A stretch of 40,321 bases of DNA from a virus, in the IMG/VR virus record IMGVR_UViG_3300017992_000049, positions 1 through 40,321 of that record, one strand, 5' to 3'. The notes under the pieces were generated by a model. It worked only from the letters and a program-made list of their open reading frames with translations. It did not search any database and was not told where the DNA came from. Below, in pieces: positions 6,025 to 40,321 of this stretch (the stretch's first letter is position 1; the number at the start of each line of letters is the position of its first letter). A program made the position numbers and the translations under genes.

Positions 6025-6333
6025 ATGGACATAAAGCCATATTTAGACAGTCTCATTCAAACACAAGACAGTATTACGCATTGTAATGAGAATAGGTGCC
6101 ACCGTGAGGCCATGCAGGAGTTACAACAGCAACGCCGCGAACAAGTCACCGAAATCGTGGACGCCTTCACGGCCCTAGAATCTGACAACGCCCAACTCCG
6201 TGAGGCATTGAGCACCTGCGTAACCGCCGCACAACTGTGGAACGACGGGGCGCTGAGTGCCGGCGAGCTGGTGGCGTATGTGCTGCACGTCGTGTTCCCT
6301 GAGCAGTACCCCAAACCAGAAGGGGTGCTGTGA
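6025..6333 (+). CDS. Coiled-coil hypothetical protein
   Basis: 102 residues, preceded by AAAGGAG. The central part (EAMQELQQQRREQVTEIVDA, continuing to about residue 60) is a predicted coiled coil. The C-terminus is a short helical segment ending in PEQYPKPEGVL. Its stop overlaps the start of the radical SAM gene, so translation is probably coupled. Confidence 0.65.
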   Translation: MDIKPYLDSLIQTQDSITHCNENRCHREAMQELQQQRREQVTEIVDAFTALESDNAQLREALSTCVTAAQLWNDGALSAGELVAYVLHVVFPEQYPKPEGVL

Positions 6334-7133
6334 TGACTTTACTATATCAACCCAAAGGCCGCGCCAGCGAGTATGCCCCCTGGGCGCTAAACTACTACAA
6401 AGGATGTGAACACAGATGTGTCTACTGTTTCGCCGCTGGAATGGCGGCACGGTTCGGGCAATGCAAAAGCCGCGCTGAATTTCACGAACACCCAACAGTG
6501 AAAAAGACGTTCTCATTATCAAAGTTGGCGCGTGAAGCGCAGTCCAAGGCCGCGCTGATTGATTCGCGGGTGCTGTTGTCTTTCACGAGTGACCCGTATC
6601 AGGCGATAGACTTCTACAAACAGCTAACGCTCAACTCCGTGCGCGTGCTACACGATTACGACATCAATGTGCAAATCCTCACCAAAAATCCGGCGGATGC
6701 ATATATGGATCGTGACATCTATACGCCGCAGGATGCTATCGCCGCCACGCTCACCTTCTCACAATGTGAGTTTGAGCGTTCGCGAATGTGGGAGCCTGGC
6801 GCACCGCCGCCGTTGTCGCGATATCAAGGGCTGGAACAGTTTCACGCGCTGGGCATCCCGACATGGGCGTCGTTGGAGCCGGTTATTGACCCAGCCTCAA
6901 CGCTGCGCATCATCGAGGAAACACGCGGATTCGTGGACCATTACAAGATCGGGAAGATCAACTACATCGAACAACTACCCGATGGTTACACGGTCAATGT
7001 CACGGATGAACAGTGGCGCGAGTTTACCCGCGAGGCTATGAGTTTGTTGGATCGGTTGTGCTACACGAGAACAGACGCCAATCATCCACAGAAAAAGACA
7101 TACTATATCAAAAATAGCCTAGCACGGTTATAG
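6333..7133 (+). CDS. Radical SAM protein, spore photoproduct lyase-like
   Basis: 266 residues from ATG 6333. CEHRCVYC (Cys 25, 29 and 32) is the CxxxCxxC motif that binds the 4Fe-4S cluster of radical SAM enzymes. The surrounding text (NYYKGCEHRCVYCFA, then SFTSDPYQ, then ILTKNP and TWASLEPVID) is typical of the SplB-like branch often annotated in phages. Such enzymes cleave SAM to a deoxyadenosyl radical, but the substrate here cannot be read from sequence; DNA repair or nucleotide modification are possibilities. Members of this branch are often orphan genes. Length is within the family range. Confidence 0.8.
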   Translation: MTLLYQPKGRASEYAPWALNYYKGCEHRCVYCFAAGMAARFGQCKSRAEFHEHPTVKKTFSLSKLAREAQSKAALIDSRVLLSFTSDPYQAIDFYKQLTLNSVRVLHDYDINVQILTKNPADAYMDRDIYTPQDAIAATLTFSQCEFERSRMWEPGAPPPLSRYQGLEQFHALGIPTWASLEPVIDPASTLRIIEETRGFVDHYKIGKINYIEQLPDGYTVNVTDEQWREFTREAMSLLDRLCYTRTDANHPQKKTYYIKNSLARL

Positions 7134-30210: not shown

Positions 30211-30445
30211 GATCAATGGCGTGGTCTAATAGGTTGGCTATTTTGTCAATCAATTCCCCAGGCGCTGCGAGTTCATCAGGCGTAAACTGTACGCCCCTGA
30301 ACTGGTCATCAACGATAACGAGACGCAATTCATTATCAGACAAACCTTGCAGACTCGCCCGGTTGCCTACCTGCAAAGATACAAGGCAATCGTCTTGTGT
30401 GCAAAAGCGGGCTTTGACTTGCGTTAGAAATTCGTGAATATTCAT
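30197..30445 (-). CDS. Small hypothetical protein between portal and MuF
   Basis: 82 residues from ATG 30443-30445, overlapping the portal stop, with GGGGAG upstream. A short helix, a strand pair (CLVSLQVGNRASLQGL) and an acidic end rich in His/Asp. Overlap at both ends suggests a translationally coupled link. Function unknown. Confidence 0.6.
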   Translation of the reverse strand: MNIHEFLTQVKARFCTQDDCLVSLQVGNRASLQGLSDNELRLVIVDDQFRGVQFTPDELAAPGELIDKIANLLDHAIDHADT

Positions 30446-31998
30446 CACTCCCCCATCACGCCGTGTTTCTCAAAATACGATCTTGCACTTACTCTGTCAG
30501 TTGGTTCCTGTGTTCGCGGGTTGAATACCTGTAACGCCTTTTTGAGTGCTCTAAGATCGGGAGTCTCCCCCCCGCTGTTATCATCATCCATGCCGACTTC
30601 AACCCCTAACTCACCAATGGCTTTGCGCAGTAACTCCAAAATAACATCTTGCTCCAACCATTCGCGATCCTCAATAATCATCAGCGCCGAAACTAGCCCA
30701 GATAGTGCGGTGATGATAACTGACATATCACGCGCCGTCATTTCTGGCATCACGATCTTTGTGGTGTCATCCTCAGCGATACCCGGCATTCCAGCGATGA
30801 TGGCTTGATCGCGCACCAAGTCAAACATCAGTTTGAGCATTTTTTGAATGCGGCCCTGTTTGTATTCCAATGAGCGGAAAGTGGGATCGCCTTGTGCCTG
30901 CGCTGTCGCCAAATGTGTACCGCTCGGTCGACCAAACCACGCCTCTGGTTTTCCCAGTCCACCGATGATGTTGACACGCTGCTCTTGAACGGTGGCAATA
31001 CTCCCAGCCTGTTTGAGGTCAGGTGATGCGGGTGTCCATTCCTCCCCGTCGCTATGCCGCAGCACGCCGCCGCGCCGGGGTGGAGTGTTTTTGTTGCGGT
31101 CGTTTGCGGCCTCAGCGACCTCTTCTGGGGAAGCCCCAATCATTTTTACATCCCACACGAAATATCCCCCGACTTGCTCGCGGTCGCCCAGGCTAAACAG
31201 GGTTTCGTCCCACTGGTCGGCATAGTCGGCGATCTGTAAATAGTCGCTACAACCCAAACCCTGGTTGCTCATTGCGTTTGCATTGAAGAACAGGCAACTT
31301 CCAGAATACTCTTCGAGTCCCTTACTTTCCAGCATTTCGTCTTCCCACGGCTCGATCTGCGATTGTTCCCAGGTTGCTAGTTTTTCAGCGTCATTTCTCC
31401 TCACGATGCGGTACACTTTCGCATCCGTGGCATGCTCCCATGGGTTAGCGCCCGTCTGCGCTTTGACGATAACCGCGACTTTGACCAGTGGATTGTCAGG
31501 GTGCAATACCACGCCGTCCAGCGCGTCAGGGTCAATATAGCCCAACGTCACCGCGCCGGTTGACTCTTTCACGAACACCGGATAGCATTGAGCCCCGAAT
31601 AAAAATAGCTCACGTGCGAATTTTGGCGCGTGGTCTTCGAGGTCGTTGTTTTCAACAAATTGCGTGTTTATTTCCTGTAGATCGTCATTGTCGCTGTGAT
31701 ACTGAAACCCACTCCCAATGATGTAGTCCCGCGTGATGTCACTATCACGTTTTACGAGGGGGTTACTCTGAAACTGTTGCCACGCTGTCGCCACGTTCTC
31801 AGCCCACGGTATATCCCCCTCCCGCCCACGTCCTGATGTGGAGGAGCGATAACCGAAACCGCCAGCGCCAATGTCGCCGCTGGCTGGGTCGTCGTTTCCG
31901 TCGTTGTAGCCGCTGGCGTATGCCTCATGTGCGTGGTAATCAGCCTGCGCTTTGGTAACGCCGCCTAAAAATTCAATAACGCGATCTGTTATGTTCAT
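30445..31998 (-). CDS. Portal protein
   Basis: 517 residues. VKRDSDITRDYIIGSGFQYH, LYLFGA-like ARELFLFGAQCYPVF, then CSDYLQIADYADQWDETL and a long helix near GRIQKMLKLMFDLVRDQAII follow the pattern of siphovirus portals. It directly follows the large terminase, with ATGA overlap. The portal forms the 12-subunit ring for DNA entry and exit. Confidence 0.85.
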   Translation of the reverse strand: MNITDRVIEFLGGVTKAQADYHAHEAYASGYNDGNDDPASGDIGAGGFGYRSSTSGRGREGDIPWAENVATAWQQFQSNPLVKRDSDITRDYIIGSGFQYHSDNDDLQEINTQFVENNDLEDHAPKFARELFLFGAQCYPVFVKESTGAVTLGYIDPDALDGVVLHPDNPLVKVAVIVKAQTGANPWEHATDAKVYRIVRRNDAEKLATWEQSQIEPWEDEMLESKGLEEYSGSCLFFNANAMSNQGLGCSDYLQIADYADQWDETLFSLGDREQVGGYFVWDVKMIGASPEEVAEAANDRNKNTPPRRGGVLRHSDGEEWTPASPDLKQAGSIATVQEQRVNIIGGLGKPEAWFGRPSGTHLATAQAQGDPTFRSLEYKQGRIQKMLKLMFDLVRDQAIIAGMPGIAEDDTTKIVMPEMTARDMSVIITALSGLVSALMIIEDREWLEQDVILELLRKAIGELGVEVGMDDDNSGGETPDLRALKKALQVFNPRTQEPTDRVSARSYFEKHGVMGE

Positions 31999-33350
31999 CT
32001 TCGCCGCCTTTTTCTGCGTACTGGTTTATATTGATTTACGTCTACGTTTGCCGTGCTACTGGATGGAACGGTGGTATTACCTAGCATCAACTCAGTGAAT
32101 AACCATACCACAGCATCCAGCCGATTTGGTGATGCCTGCCCCGGTTCCCACTGGCATAACTCGTCTTCCAGCGCAGAAAATGCGCCGACATGGTGTATAC
32201 GCCGCTGTTCATACAGTGCGCTCACCGGTTCTGCGCGGGTTTGTTTACCGCGTGATGCATGCACGATTTTAACGTGCACGCTGCTGTCGATTTGGTTAAT
32301 CACGGTGGGAATCCATTCCCCGCCATTGTTGGCTTCCACGATCAAAACATCGGCTTGCAGTTTGTGGTACATCGTGATCGCCGCTTTCGCCTGCTCTGTG
32401 GGCGTGCCGTGCACCGTGGCATCTTCGAGCACATAACCATCTGTATCCAGCACGCCGCCACCAATTACCCCGCAGTCATCAGCATTTGCGCTGGATGTCG
32501 CGGCCGGGTCCATAGCCACGCCCACACGGTATAGCTCTGGTGTTTTGAGTATGCGCGTGTCGTCAATCCATTCGCGTTTCCAGAGTGCATGCTCGTTATC
32601 CTCGATAAGCTCCGCGTTGAGTTCCTGTCTCCCCAGCCGCGTGCCTTCGTATTTCGTGATGATGCGGTCAAAAAACACTGTTGATAGATTGCGCCTGTTT
32701 TCATAGGTCGTGCCAGTAGTTTTGACAAGCCCTGGTGTACTCAGCACATCCCGCAGCACCTTGCAGTTTTTGGGAGTCGTAGCAATTGCGCCTTGTGGAA
32801 TATCGCCTAGTCGAAAACCGAACATGAGCATATCCCACGCCTCTACGCCATAACGCCATACGGCCAATTCGTCAGCTACAAACCAATGACACTGGGGGCC
32901 GCGTAACCGGTCAGGGCTGTCTGCGCTTCTGACATATGCCTTGCTCCCGTTTGGCCATGTGATGAGCCGGTTTGATGGGTTATAAGTTGGCCGCTCAGCA
33001 ATTGCCCCCGCGTTCACGATTCCGCTGGGACCTTGTATTGTGACATCGCGCACATCGGCAGCCGTGGGGGCTATGACAATCCCCAAACTGCCCGGCATGG
33101 TGGACGCTTTCATATTTGCGAATTCTGCAATCATGTTCGTTTTCCCAAACCCCCGCCCAGCCAAAGATAACCACAATGACCAATCCCCTTCTGGGGGTAC
33201 TTGTTTGTCGCGTGCTCCCCATACCAAAAACCACGGAATTGAGGCAATGTCAGTATCTGAAAGCCCCGCGATCCACTCACGTCTCTTCTGTGGCTTCATC
33301 CGCCGCAATTGCCTGCGTAATATCCGCCAGTAGTTTTGCTCTAGTGTCAT
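31995..33350 (-). CDS. terL: Large terminase subunit (TerL)
   Basis: 451 residues. Walker A GRGFGKT (about 66-72), Walker B WFVADELA, then a coupling motif region (GAIATTPKN), and a nuclease domain starting GVAMDPAATSSANADDCG with further acidic sites (LIVEANNGG and RLDAVVW). This is the ATPase-nuclease that cuts and pumps DNA into the head. The start lies inside the small terminase gene (74-base overlap). Length is usual. Confidence 0.9.
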   Translation of the reverse strand: MTLEQNYWRILRRQLRRMKPQKRREWIAGLSDTDIASIPWFLVWGARDKQVPPEGDWSLWLSLAGRGFGKTNMIAEFANMKASTMPGSLGIVIAPTAADVRDVTIQGPSGIVNAGAIAERPTYNPSNRLITWPNGSKAYVRSADSPDRLRGPQCHWFVADELAVWRYGVEAWDMLMFGFRLGDIPQGAIATTPKNCKVLRDVLSTPGLVKTTGTTYENRRNLSTVFFDRIITKYEGTRLGRQELNAELIEDNEHALWKREWIDDTRILKTPELYRVGVAMDPAATSSANADDCGVIGGGVLDTDGYVLEDATVHGTPTEQAKAAITMYHKLQADVLIVEANNGGEWIPTVINQIDSSVHVKIVHASRGKQTRAEPVSALYEQRRIHHVGAFSALEDELCQWEPGQASPNRLDAVVWLFTELMLGNTTVPSSSTANVDVNQYKPVRRKRRRR

Positions 33351-33768
33351 TGATTGCGTTTAAGCTCTCGCCTTTCGTGGTTACGTCAACCTGCCCCGAA
33401 TGCCTTGACGGTGCATCTAGTCCCAACAACCGTGCCCGCCTTTCCATTATCCGCAATACGCGATCAATTGCCCCCTGATGACCTTGAGCTACTTTGGGCC
33501 ATAGCGTGGTGAGCATTGCATCAAGCCGCTGTTTTTCGAGTTCGATGATTTGTTCTGCATTCTCTGAAATGTCACTACGCAGACGATCAAGCTCACGTTT
33601 CACGTCCTTGTATGCATAACGCTCATCCCATCCGCTGGGCAACATATCCGCACCAAACTTTTTTATAGCACCCTGCACGATCTGTGCATACGTCGCGCCG
33701 CCTTTGCGCATTTTAAGCACATAAGAACGGCGTTCTGCGGTTTCCAGTAAATCGGAGGTTTGTGTCAT
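33277..33768 (-). CDS. terS: Small terminase subunit (TerS)-like
   Basis: 163 residues, preceded by GGGGG. An N-terminal HTH-like region (RKGGATYAQIVQGAIKKFGA) is followed by a coiled coil (SENAEQIIELEKQRLDAMLT) and a C-terminal tail that overlaps TerL. Size, design and position directly before TerL support the call. It recognises the phage DNA for packaging. Confidence 0.75.
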   Translation of the reverse strand: MTQTSDLLETAERRSYVLKMRKGGATYAQIVQGAIKKFGADMLPSGWDERYAYKDVKRELDRLRSDISENAEQIIELEKQRLDAMLTTLWPKVAQGHQGAIDRVLRIMERRARLLGLDAPSRHSGQVDVTTKGESLNAINDTRAKLLADITQAIAADEATEET

Positions 33769-33841: not shown

Positions 33842-34573
33842 TTACGCTTTATCTTTCACGGCTATCCAACCAGCGAAGTTCATCCATCGCCAAAAACAAT
33901 CCACCTGTGAAAAACCCGTGATTTTTAGCATTTCCTCATTCCATTTTGCTGTGACCGGAACAAGCGCGCCCTCCAGACTTAATCGTTTTCGCTCGATCTG
34001 CTCATCGGTATATCCGTTATCGCGCTTTAGATTGTAGTATAATTCAATCATTGTGGAGTCAATTTCTGCGCTTGCGCCGATGACCTTTTCAACGAGAATC
34101 AAGCACCCCCCGTCAATGATGTGATCGTAAATATTTTTTAGTATACTAAGTCTATACTCGATTGGCGTAAATTGAAGAGTGAGCACGCAGAGAGTTATAC
34201 ACGCCCTAATGTGCGGATAATCGCTTCTTAGGTCTATATTGTTAATAGTGACAAGTCCAGACCCATTATACGGCCCTTCAAGCATATATGAAAAACGCTC
34301 CCGCGCCGCTTCAAGCATCGGCTCACTTACATCTAGCAATGTGTAAGTATTAAGGCATCCGTACTTATCAATGAACGGCGCTATAGCTTCACCTCTGCTG
34401 CACCCAAGATCAACTATAGACGTATTACGTTTATGAAACTTACAAGCCAAATCAAAAGAAAGTTTACGCATAACATTATACTGTGGTATTGATCGCTGAA
34501 GCATATCATCAAAAACATCTGCAACGCTCTCGTTAAACTCCCATTTGCCATCAGGCATTACTTGATCTTGCAT
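33842..34573 (-). CDS. CmoA-like carboxy-SAM synthase
   Basis: 243 residues from ATG 34571-34573, with GAGGG ten bases upstream. It aligns along its full length with E. coli CmoA, which makes carboxy-SAM from SAM and prephenate. GKWEFNESVADVFDDMLQRS corresponds to the CmoA N-terminus. Equivalents of ligand residues Tyr39 (Y32), GCS 64-66 (57-59), Asp89 (D81), Asp117 (D114) and Arg199 (R197, which holds the carboxyl group) are kept. Asn132 seems replaced by Val130. Its start overlaps the end of the C5 DNA methyltransferase gene by 16 bases. No CmoB is present, so a tRNA role is less favoured than supplying carboxy-SAM to the neighbouring methyltransferase. Comparison is from memory. Confidence 0.85.
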   Translation of the reverse strand: MQDQVMPDGKWEFNESVADVFDDMLQRSIPQYNVMRKLSFDLACKFHKRNTSIVDLGCSRGEAIAPFIDKYGCLNTYTLLDVSEPMLEAARERFSYMLEGPYNGSGLVTINNIDLRSDYPHIRACITLCVLTLQFTPIEYRLSILKNIYDHIIDGGCLILVEKVIGASAEIDSTMIELYYNLKRDNGYTDEQIERKRLSLEGALVPVTAKWNEEMLKITGFSQVDCFWRWMNFAGWIAVKDKA

Positions 34574-35616
34574 AATATTTCATCCCTCACAGTGCGCGCA
34601 ATATGATACATCATCACGGGGGGGACGGCGCGTCCAAGCCGCTCCCATTGTCTGGCGTATGTACCTGATAGTCTGAAGTCATCAGGGAAAGCACATATTC
34701 GTTTTAGCTCTTGTATAGATAAATACCTTTTCTCGATATTATGAGTGCAAGATGCACCCATAAACGGTTTTCCGTTATCATTAGCCATTCTTTGCTGAAT
34801 CGTTGCACAAGGTTTATCAAGCCCGACTTTATATAGGCTGAACATATTTGGGTGATGCTCACCTGGGCTGATTTGCTCCCATAGAGCACCGACCTTATAC
34901 CCGTCCAAACTTGGCGCCGTCTCTTTGCACATCTCTTGTTCCCAAGCATCGCGCACCGTATATCTATAATCCAGCGGTCTTGGATACTTAGGGTTTACCC
35001 CCAAGTCATTCCTAACCCCCTGAAAAATAACACGTTGTCGCATCTGCGGAACGCCCAACCACTGCGCATCAAGTAGCTTAGCTTTTACGTTATACCCGCA
35101 ATCCTTCAATCGCTGCAAAATAATCTTGAAGTAGCCCTTTGCTTTACCTTTCACAAGTCCGCTCACATTCTCAGCAATAAAAACTTTAGGTTGTAAACCT
35201 TCGAGAATCCGCGCGTACTCAAAAAACAAATCGTCTACTCTCTGGCGTGTGTCTGAATATTTTTTGACTTTGCCCCATCCTTTTTCGCGCTTACCCAATG
35301 TTGAGAAAGAAGCGCAGGGCGGGGAGCCGTCCATAATGTCAATCTCTCCCACGCTCATCCCGATAGCCTCAAGAATTTCAGCGGGTTGTACTTTTCTAAT
35401 ATCACGTAAATCTAAAATCGAATCGGGATGATTGAGCCTATATACCTTCTGAGCTGCAGGAATAAACTCATTTGCCCATAGCACTTTATAACCCGCCATA
35501 CGATACCCAAGACACGAACCGCCCGCCCCGCTAAATGTAGAAACGACGTTGAAGCCGTTCCAGGGCGTAGTCTCTATTTCTGACATTGACGGCACTTTAT
35601 ACGCGGGCTTGTTCAT
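34558..35616 (-). CDS. C5-cytosine DNA methyltransferase with Arg in motif X; predicted carboxymethyltransferase
   Basis: 352 residues from ATG 35614-35616, overlapping the upstream stop (ATGA). Motif I TFSGAGGSCLGYRMAGY (27-43), IV GSPPCASFS with catalytic Cys101, VI ENV (149-151), VIII QMRQRV (191-196), and a final motif X at 327-333. All order and spacing fit an active C5 enzyme. Motif X normally reads GN[SA]V; here it is GRAVPP, with Arg329 (codon at 34630-34632) in place of Asn. The same Asn changed to Lys in M.MpeI allows use of carboxy-SAM. With the CmoA homologue just downstream, a 5-carboxymethylcytosine product is predicted. The target site is unknown. Confidence 0.9.
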   Translation of the reverse strand: MNKPAYKVPSMSEIETTPWNGFNVVSTFSGAGGSCLGYRMAGYKVLWANEFIPAAQKVYRLNHPDSILDLRDIRKVQPAEILEAIGMSVGEIDIMDGSPPCASFSTLGKREKGWGKVKKYSDTRQRVDDLFFEYARILEGLQPKVFIAENVSGLVKGKAKGYFKIILQRLKDCGYNVKAKLLDAQWLGVPQMRQRVIFQGVRNDLGVNPKYPRPLDYRYTVRDAWEQEMCKETAPSLDGYKVGALWEQISPGEHHPNMFSLYKVGLDKPCATIQQRMANDNGKPFMGASCTHNIEKRYLSIQELKRICAFPDDFRLSGTYARQWERLGRAVPPVMMYHIARTVRDEILCKIK

Positions 35617-36137
35617 TTTGGTGTTCCGCTCCATTCATAGCCGCACTTAGGGCAACAGAAATCCGTATTAATATCATCATCGTATTCCGAGAAGTCACTC
35701 GGCGATTCATCGTTTTCTTCAATCCCCAACTCAAACGCCTCAAACCCCCACTCCAATAAATCCCCGTCATCAAACTCATTTGCCAGGATGTCGAAATCCC
35801 ACGTACCGCCTAGTTTGTTGGCTTGGATATTGGCCTGTTCGCAGGTTTTAGCATCCCACACCACGGCGCGATAACTGTACCGCTCGCCATTCCATTCGAT
35901 ATAACCCAGGGCCACGGTTCCCGCCTTGGTGGGAGCGTCGTATTCCTGCGTTACAACGATGTCATTCTCGCGGGTTGCCAAGTCAAACACCCGGACACGC
36001 TGATTCCCGCCGATGATCTCATCGGTAGGGATGTTGTGCACAATGCCCGACAAATCCCCAAGCTCAGCAAGGGAGACGCGCAACTGTTCGAATTGTTTCC
36101 CCGTTATCTGTCGCGGGTTTTTATGATAGTGTTTCAT
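35613..36137 (-). CDS. ParB-like domain protein with C-terminal zinc ribbon
   Basis: 174 residues, preceded by AGGAG. The N-terminal 55 residues (NPRQITGKQFEQLRVSLAEL, then IVHNIPTDEIIGGNQRVRVF) are a ParB/sulfiredoxin-like domain, with the GGNQR loop that binds nucleotide in this family. The centre contains a strand-rich part and acidic segment, and the end CCPKCGYEW is half a zinc ribbon. Such genes often neighbour or fuse with DNA methyltransferases in phages. It overlaps the C5 enzyme gene by four bases, so the two are translationally coupled. Confidence 0.75.
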   Translation of the reverse strand: MKHYHKNPRQITGKQFEQLRVSLAELGDLSGIVHNIPTDEIIGGNQRVRVFDLATRENDIVVTQEYDAPTKAGTVALGYIEWNGERYSYRAVVWDAKTCEQANIQANKLGGTWDFDILANEFDDGDLLEWGFEAFELGIEENDESPSDFSEYDDDINTDFCCPKCGYEWSGTPK

Positions 36138-36713: not shown

Positions 36714-36858
36714 CCAGCCTCAAACGAATTTCGATGGTTTCACAATATTTGTTATGGTTGAACCGCTCCAAATCCCGCAATGTATAAACAGCACGCACTA
36801 AGCGAACCGGCAGGGATTGCGGTGTTTCAATAGTTTTCAGCGGAATGACTAATGGCAT
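36667..36858 (-). CDS. Small hypothetical protein
   Basis: 63 residues, overlapping the previous gene by ten bases. A short strand-helix fold with a basic end (RLRLDAETRKAQTPRKGKN). Family not recognised. It belongs to a run of overlapping small genes before the modification module. Confidence 0.55.
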   Translation of the reverse strand: MPLVIPLKTIETPQSLPVRLVRAVYTLRDLERFNHNKYCETIEIRLRLDAETRKAQTPRKGKN

Positions 36859-37304
36859 GGCGCAATTCTCAGAATCAGCGTAATATAGTGCCCATCCTGT
36901 ACGCGGCGGATCGCCTTGTTCACCAGCGTTTCATCGTTGTCCGTTTCAATGAGTATCATAATGTTGATCTCAACTTTACTCAGGTTTCCCATTGCCGCAT
37001 CTGCCAGAGCCAGTCCCAATGCACGCGCCAGTTTTGTATCGAGTATGAATTCAACTCGCTTGGTATCAATGTCTAGTAGCGGCTCAAACGCCATGTTGTC
37101 CCGCAGTGCTGCAAATAGCAGCGGGTTGATCTCCGCGTCTGTGAACACCTGAAAATACTCGCAGTTGTCGCAGGCGTCACCACTGGCGAGCAGTACTTTG
37201 ACACGTGCCACATCTGCGATGTCGGTATACTCAACTTCCGCCAGACTCTCCAGTAGCGCATGCGGCACGTGTTCTTCAATGGTTATTGTTAAATTTTCGT
37301 GCAT
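36849..37304 (-). CDS. Hypothetical protein
   Basis: 151 residues, starting immediately after the previous stop. Alternating strands and helices (KVEINIMILIETDNDETLVN, then HYITLILRIAP) and a CDNC pair in the middle. No recognised domain. The direct junction with the gene at 37305 suggests a linked function. Confidence 0.6.
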   Translation of the reverse strand: MHENLTITIEEHVPHALLESLAEVEYTDIADVARVKVLLASGDACDNCEYFQVFTDAEINPLLFAALRDNMAFEPLLDIDTKRVEFILDTKLARALGLALADAAMGNLSKVEINIMILIETDNDETLVNKAIRRVQDGHYITLILRIAPCH

Positions 37305-37730
37305 TTAAAGTCTTCGTCGTTGGTGTCCAATGATTGTGCGTGTCATGCGCGTGCCGCCGTGATATGGAAGCCGCATGCTCGGCTTCCAATACAATTCAGC
37401 GATAGACTGCTCCCCCGCGTCTACCATTTCAAAAAATAGATCGTCGTCTCTCCCGCCGTCGAAATACCGCATGGTCTTGTGTCTGACTTTCAGTGCACCC
37501 GCACGCGCCGCCCATACTTCCACCTCACATGCACCATGCTCCGCGATAATTGCGGCGATTTCTGTAACATCTGCGGCGGTGTGGGTACAGTCCACCCATT
37601 CAAGCGTGGGAAGTTGCGGCGGCATGGCATCATCCCGCAGCATCCGCGCAACGATCACCCGGTGCTGCGTGCCGTCAGCGGCTACGATAATAGCCGGTTG
37701 CGGCGGGTCAAATGTCATCCAGTCGGTCAT
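37305..37730 (-). CDS. Hypothetical protein, possibly leaderless mRNA
   Basis: 141 residues from ATG 37728-37730. There is no ribosome binding site, and TATAAT ends only six bases before the ATG, so the transcript may start at the ATG itself. The protein is alpha-beta (TQHRVIVARMLRDD, then CEVEVWAARAGALKVRHKTM). Function unknown. Confidence 0.6.
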   Translation of the reverse strand: MTDWMTFDPPQPAIIVAADGTQHRVIVARMLRDDAMPPQLPTLEWVDCTHTAADVTEIAAIIAEHGACEVEVWAARAGALKVRHKTMRYFDGGRDDDLFFEMVDAGEQSIAELYWKPSMRLPYHGGTRMTRTIIGHQRRRL

Positions 37731-38026: not shown

Positions 38027-38497
38027 TCATTCCACCTCAAACGTCATACCATATGACGCGAGTTTATCACGTTGCGCCGCCGTGATGTCACCAAACACCA
38101 CGAATGCACTAGGGAAAGGTGCACTGTTTTTTGCGCCGCCAAATTTCAGCCGCCCCTTGATGAGCACCACGAGGCGGGCATACTTTACGTTGTCATGCCA
38201 CCATCGCGTATCAGTGCGGGCAGGGACAAGGCAAACCGTCGTAGCCTGAGATCGGTTGATCGCCGCCTTATTCATCCATGCACCAATTCCGCGCCCATAC
38301 GGTGGATTCATCCAGCACAGCCCGCGCCATGGCTGCGCTAGGCCATTATCCTGCTCGCTGTAATAATTCGCGCAAACATTAGAGCGTGATGCGCATACGT
38401 CTAAATCCCAAGGGAAAACGGTGGACAAATCCGCGATCAATTCTGTGGGTGTGTCCCATTTTCCGGTGGCGCTGCTAAACATTAAATCGGTGTTCAT
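38027..38497 (-). CDS. Phage DNA N6-adenine methyltransferase (Dam-like)
   Basis: 156 residues. CWMNPPYGRG is the catalytic NPPY motif of N6-adenine enzymes, and LDVCASRSNVC and WDTPTELIADL are typical of the phage Dam family (pfam05869). It is short, as usual in this family. It likely methylates phage DNA for protection against restriction. It overlaps the preceding gene by four bases. Confidence 0.85.
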   Translation of the reverse strand: MNTDLMFSSATGKWDTPTELIADLSTVFPWDLDVCASRSNVCANYYSEQDNGLAQPWRGLCWMNPPYGRGIGAWMNKAAINRSQATTVCLVPARTDTRWWHDNVKYARLVVLIKGRLKFGGAKNSAPFPSAFVVFGDITAAQRDKLASYGMTFEVE

Positions 38498-38991
38498 TCT
38501 ATCCTCTCCAATTCATATCCATTAAAACGATAGCGCCCACACAACACGACTGCGCCGTTGGAACGCTCAATATAGTCCATCACAATTCCGGTGGGCCACT
38601 CGCCCGGTTTCGGTGGCGAGATGCCACCCATGCCCCATACCTGAATCGCATCAAACTCTGCGCCGATGTGGAAAAGTGGGTCAAATCCTGGCACGGATAC
38701 CACGCGAAAGAATTTCAATGCGCCCGTTTTGTATGGCTGGCGTGCTCGTGGCTGATATACGCCGCTGATATTTGGTGGAGCCAGAGCAGCGGCGTTTATC
38801 ATTATTAGCGCATCAGTTAGCGGGACAATCAGTTTTCGATATCCGCCTTTTTTTGCTGTCACGCCCACGGCATCCAGCCACCGCAGCACCTGCCCCGCTG
38901 CGCAATGGGATCGCAGTCGGTCAGCCCACGCGCTAGTAGTGACTTTTCCTTCTAGGTCGTGGAGGATGGCAGCGATGGCAGCGGGAGTCAT
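38494..38991 (-). CDS. Hypothetical protein with N-terminal HTH-like domain
   Basis: 165 residues from ATG 38989-38991, which overlaps the preceding stop (ATGA). An HTH-like start (MTPAAIAAILHDLEGKVTTS) is followed by a beta-rich domain ending in YRFNGYELERIE. It resembles the next gene upstream in layout and probably arose from it by duplication. Function unknown; the neighbours are DNA methyltransferases. Confidence 0.6.
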   Translation of the reverse strand: MTPAAIAAILHDLEGKVTTSAWADRLRSHCAAGQVLRWLDAVGVTAKKGGYRKLIVPLTDALIMINAAALAPPNISGVYQPRARQPYKTGALKFFRVVSVPGFDPLFHIGAEFDAIQVWGMGGISPPKPGEWPTGIVMDYIERSNGAVVLCGRYRFNGYELERIE

Positions 38992-39515
38992 AGCTCGATC
39001 ACTCGCCAAGTGTCTTTTCTGAATATCCGCAGGCCATCCGCGACGCATGGAATAGGTTCACCCTTTTTGGGAATATATAGCATTTCCCAACGAGAATATA
39101 CCGGGACTTTGTCCGGCCCCCAAAATTGCAGTTTCATGCTGTACTCTGAAAGCTCGAAACCATTAAACAGCCCATCAGGATCATGGATTACCACGAATTT
39201 GGGGGGGTTGACGTATGACATGCTCCGATTTCGCCCGTCTTTTCGTTTTAGTTTCACAGGGAACTCAACGCCCCTGTAATCCTCGCGTAGCGTTTCTAAA
39301 ACATAGTCAAGCCCATGCCACTCAGGAATAAAACGACGGCGTGGTTCACGTTCAGTTAATCCCTCATCATCCAACCATTGTAAAATGTCCGTAAGCGCAT
39401 TCTCGGTGCACCTTCCGGCTATAGCCTCGATAGCGGACTTGATTTTTCCGCGTGTCATACTCCCATCGGTTGCGGCTATGGCATCAGCTAGTTGTGAGGC
39501 GGTGATAGTGGTCAT
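38988..39515 (-). CDS. Hypothetical protein, probable paralogue of the next gene
   Basis: 175 residues. The N-terminus (TASQLADAIAATDGSMTRGK, then ALTDILQWLDDEGLT) forms an HTH-like unit like its neighbour's (VLRWLDAVGVT). The C-terminal part has LQFWGPDKVP, close to IQVWGMGGISPP there. It overlaps the adenine methyltransferase gene by one base. Possibly a DNA-binding partner of that enzyme. Confidence 0.6.
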   Translation of the reverse strand: MTTITASQLADAIAATDGSMTRGKIKSAIEAIAGRCTENALTDILQWLDDEGLTEREPRRRFIPEWHGLDYVLETLREDYRGVEFPVKLKRKDGRNRSMSYVNPPKFVVIHDPDGLFNGFELSEYSMKLQFWGPDKVPVYSRWEMLYIPKKGEPIPCVADGLRIFRKDTWRVIEL

Positions 39516-40321
39516 TAAAAAAGTCTCCCTTGTTTGTCGTCATTTAGGCAGTACGGAGATAACCATAGCCGCTCTTTGCGCCTATTGTCATTCGCACTGG
39601 TATGCGTTTGATATGCTGAGCCGGCCTTCCACTCGACCACACGCCAGCTATGCGGCATGTCATGTTCTCCCTCGTAGCCCGCTAAAACAATACGATAACG
39701 CGGGTTATCCTGGTTCTCTATACACCACCGCCGTACATCTGAGCTGATATAATGCCCGTTGCCAGCATCGGTGTTGTAGCAACGGCCATCACGCGTTTGT
39801 GTGTCGTATGGCGGGTCTAGAAAAATCCCCACGGATTTCCCATGGCATAATGCTCCCTGCGTGACAACTCGTTTCCAGTCTCCGCAACATACACGCACAT
39901 AACGCAACCGCTCCGCGAGTTTGTTTAGATATGTCAGTATAGCGGCCTCCCCCGTTTTCACGCCTTGCCCTGCATTGCCGAGGTGGACACGCTTGCGATT
40001 CACGCCTTGCCCTGCATTGCCGAGGTGGACACGCTTGCGATTCACGCCGCGACCAGCATCGCCGAGGTGGACGCGCTGGCCGTTTTCGCTCCCCCACGGG
40101 CCTTTTCCAGAACACCAGCCGCTTCCTATCCAGCAGGCTATCCCCCACACCCACCAACCAGCTACTTTGGCATCGTAGTACTCCGGATCGCCCAATGTTC
40201 GCGCTATGCGTTCGGCGCCCTGATTCACTAACCAAATATGGCGCGCCGTAAGGTCAGCTTCGTTAACTGGGTTGTTTGCATAATGCGCAACTTTTTGCGG
40301 ATCGTGTTGGACTGCCCTCCA
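39515..40321 (-). CDS. D12-class DNA adenine methyltransferase, 5' end beyond window
   Basis: 268 residues are visible, the start being outside. IFLDPPYDTQTRDGR carries the catalytic DPPY motif of D12-class N6-adenine enzymes, and DPEYYDAKVAGWWVWG is typical of phage members. The middle contains three copies of a 14-residue unit (NRKRVHLGNAGQGV), encoded by 42-bp repeats at 39959-40084, in the region that usually recognises the target. It is the first visible gene of the modification group. Confidence 0.85.
   Translation of the reverse strand, partial: WRAVQHDPQKVAHYANNPVNEADLTARHIWLVNQGAERIARTLGDPEYYDAKVAGWWVWGIACWIGSGWCSGKGPWGSENGQRVHLGDAGRGVNRKRVHLGNAGQGVNRKRVHLGNAGQGVKTGEAAILTYLNKLAERLRYVRVCCGDWKRVVTQGALCHGKSVGIFLDPPYDTQTRDGRCYNTDAGNGHYISSDVRRWCIENQDNPRYRIVLAGYEGEHDMPHSWRVVEWKAGSAYQTHTSANDNRRKERLWLSPYCLNDDKQGRLF
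39959..40084 (-). repeat. Three 42-bp in-frame tandem repeats
   Basis: Units 39959-40000 and 40001-40042 are identical; 40043-40084 is diverged. Each encodes 14 residues inside the D12 methyltransferase, so the repeat number can change without breaking the frame. Confidence 0.85.

Follow-up and report, generated by a model that had tools for sequence, protein, structure and literature searches.

A ligase-free ParB-CmoX-CmoA phage cassette, predicted to place 5-carboxymethylcytosine in DNA, as a new member of a published system

A three-gene cassette (ParB-CmoX-CmoA) carried by a phage contig very probably makes carboxy-SAM (Cx-SAM) and puts 5-carboxymethylcytosine (5cxmC) in phage DNA, a chemistry that we infer from homologues. 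The sequence studied, called the window below, is the 40,321-nt virus record IMGVR_UViG_3300017992_000049, a linear metagenomic contig; end repeats were sought in it as a completeness test, and none was found. The cmoX-cmoA pair adds a new member, without ligase, to a published system and is not a first discovery, because the chemistry was published for phage S-B43 in December 2025. The finding is an independent blind rediscovery of that chemistry, extended by the ligase-free layout.

The literature on natural DNA carboxymethylation was searched, and a single paper was found (Yang et al., Nat Commun, December 2025; PMC12783734), in which natural 5cxmC is described and CmoA and CmoX are proven biochemically. 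The CmoA of Synechococcus phage S-B43 makes carboxy-SAM, and SpCmoX, a C5-MTase homologue, produces 5cxmC from carboxy-SAM and not from SAM. Arg350 of SpCmoX contacts the Cx-SAM carboxylate, and the R350N change abolishes activity. The modification is placed in GC sites and blocks HhaI. A total of 5,615 CmoX candidates are reported, many with CmoA, fewer with a ligase or ParBc (PMC12783734). The initial annotation of this DNA, made blind to its origin, gave tRNA modification by CmoB as the only established use of carboxy-SAM; with natural 5cxmC in DNA now published, this statement is out of date. The product it proposed also calls for a correction: in S-B43, the sole tested phage, CmoY ligates glycine to 5cxmC, and the virion DNA contains the glycine amide, not 5cxmC (PMC12783734). 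The window record is without CmoY.

The cassette reads ParB/zinc ribbon-CmoX-CmoA, all on the minus strand, followed by terminase and portal genes:

35613..36137, minus strand: ParB-like protein with a C-terminal CxxC zinc ribbon, 174 aa (PHROG_620 / PHROG_498, E about 1e-17)
34558..35634, minus strand: cmoX, DNA cytosine C5-carboxymethyltransferase homologue, 358 aa (PF00145, 8YF3 match, SPPC)
34558..35616, minus strand: cmoX from the preferred ATG, the second in frame, 352 aa
35314..35316, minus strand: codon of the catalytic Cys107 in the SPPC motif, equivalent to SpCmoX Cys98
34630..34632, minus strand: codon of Arg335 (numbering from the ATG at 35634) in motif X, equivalent by alignment to SpCmoX Arg350 and M.HhaI Asn304
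34558..34573, minus strand: 16-base overlap of the cmoX end and the cmoA start, read from the sequence
33842..34573, minus strand: cmoA, carboxy-SAM synthase homologue, 243 aa (TIGR00740, PHROG_4752, AlphaFold model, aligned residues)
33277..33768, minus strand: small-terminase-like gene after the cassette (PHROG_645, annotated there as RNase E; small terminase by position)
31995-33350: large terminase, context
30445-31998: portal, context

The initial annotation had described a complete CmoA-like gene overlapping by 16 bases a complete C5 DNA methyltransferase gene that ends upstream at 35616. Both open reading frames are intact and the overlap is exact. A GAGGG-like Shine-Dalgarno sequence lies just upstream of the cmoA start, within the end of cmoX. 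For cmoX, 35616 is a better start than 35634, because the ATG at 35616 forms an ATGA overlap with the stop codon of the ParB-like gene before it, and because several homologues start there.

When the CmoA of the window was compared with TIGR00740, the model for the CmoA equivalog, it scored 151.5 bits (E=3e-44), below the curated cut-off of 193.3. It matched PHROG_4752, the separate family into which phage CmoA proteins fall, with E=1.5e-71. For these two reasons, it is named here a phage CmoA homologue and is kept apart from the bacterial equivalog. Its top PDB matches by sequence are CmoA/YecO structures (1IM8, 4GEK, 4IWN), which are also the best fold matches of its AlphaFold model (pLDDT 89.6), a full-length CmoA-like fold. 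Active-site residues were compared with those given for E. coli CmoA in PMC3663124, using a reference sequence entered by hand that agrees with 4GEK. Arg197 of the window protein aligns with Arg199, which salt-bridges the carboxylate in the E. coli enzyme (PMC3663124), and Glu162 aligns with Glu164. Tyr32, Asp55, Ser59, Asp81 and Asp114 align with Tyr39, Asp62, Ser66, Asp89 and Asp117. Two E. coli SAM contacts, Asn90 and Asn132, are Val in the window protein, and the proven SpCmoA departs at these positions too. SpCmoA is active though it has no equivalent of Arg199; by this residue, the window CmoA is closer to the canonical enzyme than SpCmoA. A short divergent class of CmoA, about 21-24% identical to that of the window, is paired with CmoX in six loci (L083, L087, L093, L152, L162, L165) and has Glu at the Arg199 equivalent, as in SpCmoA.

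The transferase matched PF00145 with E=1.7e-55. Its best PDB match by sequence is 8YF3, the structure of SpCmoX with Cx-SAM (E=8e-64), and the same entry ranks first among the fold matches of its AlphaFold model (pLDDT 88.7, E=9e-32). The SPPC catalytic motif is kept, with Cys107 as nucleophile. Motif X reads WERLGRAVPP and places Arg335 at the position of SpCmoX Arg350, where M.HhaI has Asn304; the non-Arg motif X expected of an ordinary 5mC methyltransferase is absent. Identity to the S-B43 counterparts is about 38% for CmoX and about 24% for CmoA. The target-recognition region is unlike that of SpCmoX, and for this reason the GC specificity of SpCmoX may not carry over. The GC dinucleotide, the site of SpCmoX, is not depleted in the window (observed/expected 1.22), a value that speaks neither for nor against its use as target.

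From these homologies, a mechanism can be proposed. CmoA would convert host SAM and prephenate to carboxy-SAM. CmoX would then flip out the target cytosine, Cys107 attacking C6, and transfer the carboxymethyl group of carboxy-SAM to C5, while Arg335 would bind the carboxylate and select against plain SAM. The predicted product is 5cxmC in phage DNA, and the ParB/zinc-ribbon protein encoded upstream of cmoX would be a conserved accessory. The modification may help the phage to escape restriction, as the initial annotation had proposed; resistance to HhaI is known from SpCmoX-treated DNA.

A search for other phages with the gene pair, suggested in the initial annotation, returned the same pair in more than 100 distinct phage loci, which excludes a chance pairing. 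All window proteins were also searched against the fetched loci, and besides the pair only ParB recurs widely: a homologue is present in 180 fetched loci, and 46 of 47 good matches have a terminal CPxC-type motif. In L016, a relative of the radical-SAM-like gene at 6330-7133 of the window (PHROG_13321) lies immediately upstream of the cassette, and in L025 a different member of this family lies directly before cmoA. This gene was not counted as part of the cassette, since apart from L016, a close relative, few loci have it nearby. The window has two further DNA methyltransferase genes, one of Dam type (38027-38497, PF05869), the other probably truncated, with an LDPPY motif (39515-40228). Among the other loci, L019, L027, L043-L046, L060 and L065 have, directly before cmoA, C5-MTases of a divergent lineage with about 25% identity to the window CmoX; where the residue is readable, Arg is found here too, in ERCGRTV or a similar motif. 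In Erwinia phage Y3 (L086) and its relatives, an intein-like insert splits the CmoX gene right after SPPC, and cmoA is about 17 kb off in the same genome. Verrucomicrobial MAGs (L312-L328; e.g. JAOSKK, JAKQDD) have several CmoX-CmoA cassettes each, on contigs as long as 519 kb; no ligase lies within 6 kb of them.

We then consider which base would finally be present in the DNA. Ligases of the CmoY type were sought in the 40-kb record by tblastn with SpCmoY-, PaBG- and TurkishDelight-type sequences, and none was found. PF00733 was absent from the window, from the complete Moraxella phage Mcat8 and from several long records of the same layout. Because the record has no CmoY-type amide ligase, we lean, on gene content, towards free 5cxmC as the likeliest final base of this phage. 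A lesser yet serious possibility is that 5cxmC serves just as an intermediate, and that its carboxylate is then amidated or otherwise capped by a phage or host enzyme so far unrecognised, as it is by CmoY with glycine in S-B43. This would touch the last step alone, and not carboxymethylation. It has in its favour the glycine amide of S-B43 virion DNA (PMC12783734), the frequency of Asn-synthase-type ligases in the cassettes (51 of 147 distinct loci) and the genes without assigned function in the window (e.g. 36849-37730, 38494-40228); the record may be incomplete and, being a linear metagenomic contig, it may leave a ligase outside. Against it, no gene with an Asn-synthase fold was found in the window, in Mcat8 or in the long records mentioned above, and the sole recurring third gene is ParB. 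Of 39 distinct cassettes flanked on each side by 4 kb or more, 26 have no ligase; where cmoX and cmoA are directly adjacent, its absence is the rule (17 of 18 loci with the same flanks). The ligase-free ParB-CmoX-CmoA cassette suggests that some phages have DNA with free 5cxmC, a base whose carboxylate is capped in S-B43, the sole phage examined.

The link between Arg335 and cmoA was tested in relatives, gathered via CmoA, via CmoX and via two non-Arg relatives, by recording for each which residue stands at position 335 and whether cmoA is present. The phage-contig sample was restricted to 121 distinct proteins scoring at least 380 bits, after removal of contig-edge cases. All 121 were concordant: 110 had Arg and cmoA nearby, and the other 11 had Asn or Leu, their loci being without cmoA. 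Whole non-Arg records of up to 41.6 kb were searched for cmoA, and none was found. Identity of these non-Arg proteins to the window CmoX is about 50-64%, and ParB linkage persists in most of them. Close CmoX relatives with Asn or Leu and without cmoA were seen on viral contigs (L137, L173-L181, L204, L208, L113) and on bacterial ones (L308, L309, L311, L330). On the basis of motif X and gene context, these are probably 5mC methyltransferases. In a tree obtained by a quick LG+G4 search, with the Arg column kept among 390, Arg and cmoA switch jointly 4 times, 3 of them on well-supported branches, and no discordant case was seen; 3-4 joint switches being too few, no significant sign test results. 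The sample of bacterial genomes gave 32 proteins with Arg and cmoA, 46 non-Arg proteins (Asn or Met) without cmoA, and 4 with Arg and no nearby cmoA, two at a contig edge and two with a ligase. Over the samples, the only proteins with Arg and no nearby cmoA came from contig edges or short contigs, or from records where cmoA or a ligase is present elsewhere.

These results bear on a more classical explanation, in which an ordinary SAM-using 5mC methyltransferase simply lies beside a CmoA that feeds tRNA modification of the host or phage. PF00145 and dcm-type models do match the transferase strongly, and tRNA cmo5U is the classical role of CmoA. However, motif X has Arg instead of Asn, with the association to cmoA just described, the cmoX and cmoA genes overlap, and SpCmoX, with the same Arg, rejects SAM (PMC12783734). 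Moreover, as the initial annotation had noted, CmoB is absent: the 40-kb record, searched loosely with TIGR00452, gave no match, while 14 of 14 controls matched. We consider this explanation very improbable. Even less credit is given to the idea, which the authors of PMC12783734 mention as possible in their discussion, that CmoA mainly depletes SAM against SAM-dependent host defences (e.g. BREX, SAM-AMP signalling), DNA modification being secondary, since cmoA strictly accompanies a transferase bearing the carboxylate-binding Arg, which suggests that the product, and not SAM removal, is under selection, and a late-operon site next to the terminase genes would fit DNA modification before packaging. 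Use of carboxy-SAM to make 5cxmC, the reading of the initial annotation, is supported by Arg335, by 8YF3 as closest structure and by the strict Arg-cmoA association. The coupling of Arg with cmoA provides a simple sequence test for carboxymethyltransferases, and the natural Asn or Leu relatives without cmoA are ready-made pairs for cofactor-switching studies.

In several phages, cmoA is found without a C5-MTase. The upstream gene in many of them encodes a PHROG_5475 protein of about 510-540 aa (L062:6219-7796, L075:5760-7343, L218-L297, L298-L300), in which a ParB domain (ParB_N) at the N-terminus is followed by a methyltransferase-like domain at the C-terminus. The motifs DFGAG, FEPY and NSVPF of the latter are invariant, and a DPPY motif was not seen in it. 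Loci were scanned by PHROG_5475 alone, and the best 80 of 221, many closely related, all had cmoA nearby (80/80) and none had a CmoX-type C5-MTase (0/80). Each of the 97 PHROG_5475 proteins examined (18 clusters at 90% identity, 6 at 50%) has cmoA beside it on the same strand, and this arrangement is found in isolates: Gordonia phage Evaa, Pseudomonas phage SM1 and Aeromonas phage HJ05. Since no adenine-N6 or cytosine-N4 type candidate beside CmoA is reported in PMC12783734, PHROG_5475 is a candidate for a second DNA-modifying enzyme dependent on Cx-SAM, of an unrelated family. The window cassette may be one of a broader group of ParB-linked Cx-SAM cassettes whose transferase is replaceable by an unrelated enzyme. 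In L017, L021, L059 and L085, with no CmoX nearby, cmoA adjoins other class-I methyltransferases, glycosyltransferases or a D12-type adenine methyltransferase, the latter in Alcaligenes phage Afa-NA1. Together with the Arg/cmoA rule and its natural non-Arg counterparts, the PHROG_5475 lead is what the present work adds most to the published system.

Compared to known systems, the window is closest in its predicted chemistry to the CmoA/CmoX/CmoY set of S-B43 (PMC12783734; 8YF3), as both have a phage CmoA homologue and a C5-MTase with SPPC and the motif-X Arg. They differ in that the window record is without CmoY, that its cmoX and cmoA overlap directly, after a ParB/zinc-ribbon gene, and that the target region is not the same. 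In the engineered M.MpeI N374K (PMC12783734), a basic residue plays the same role and admits carboxy-SAM; by the comparison made in that paper, Arg335 corresponds to M.MpeI Asn374, but the engineered enzyme has Lys and is CpG-specific, whereas the window CmoX is natural and has Arg. The E. coli CmoA/CmoB pathway to tRNA cmo5U34 (4GEK, 4IWN) shares with the window the CmoA fold and its carboxylate-binding Arg, but in the window, without CmoB, the partner is a DNA C5 transferase. The layout is also seen in Moraxella phage Mcat8, where a ParB-like gene, CmoX with Arg and CmoA stand in a row before the terminase-portal genes, without ligase, as in the window; its CmoA belongs to the divergent short class and is about 21% identical to that of the window. 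Pseudomonas phage PaBG has the same row of ParB-like protein, CmoX with Arg and CmoA, and differs from the window by its Asn-synthase-type ligase.
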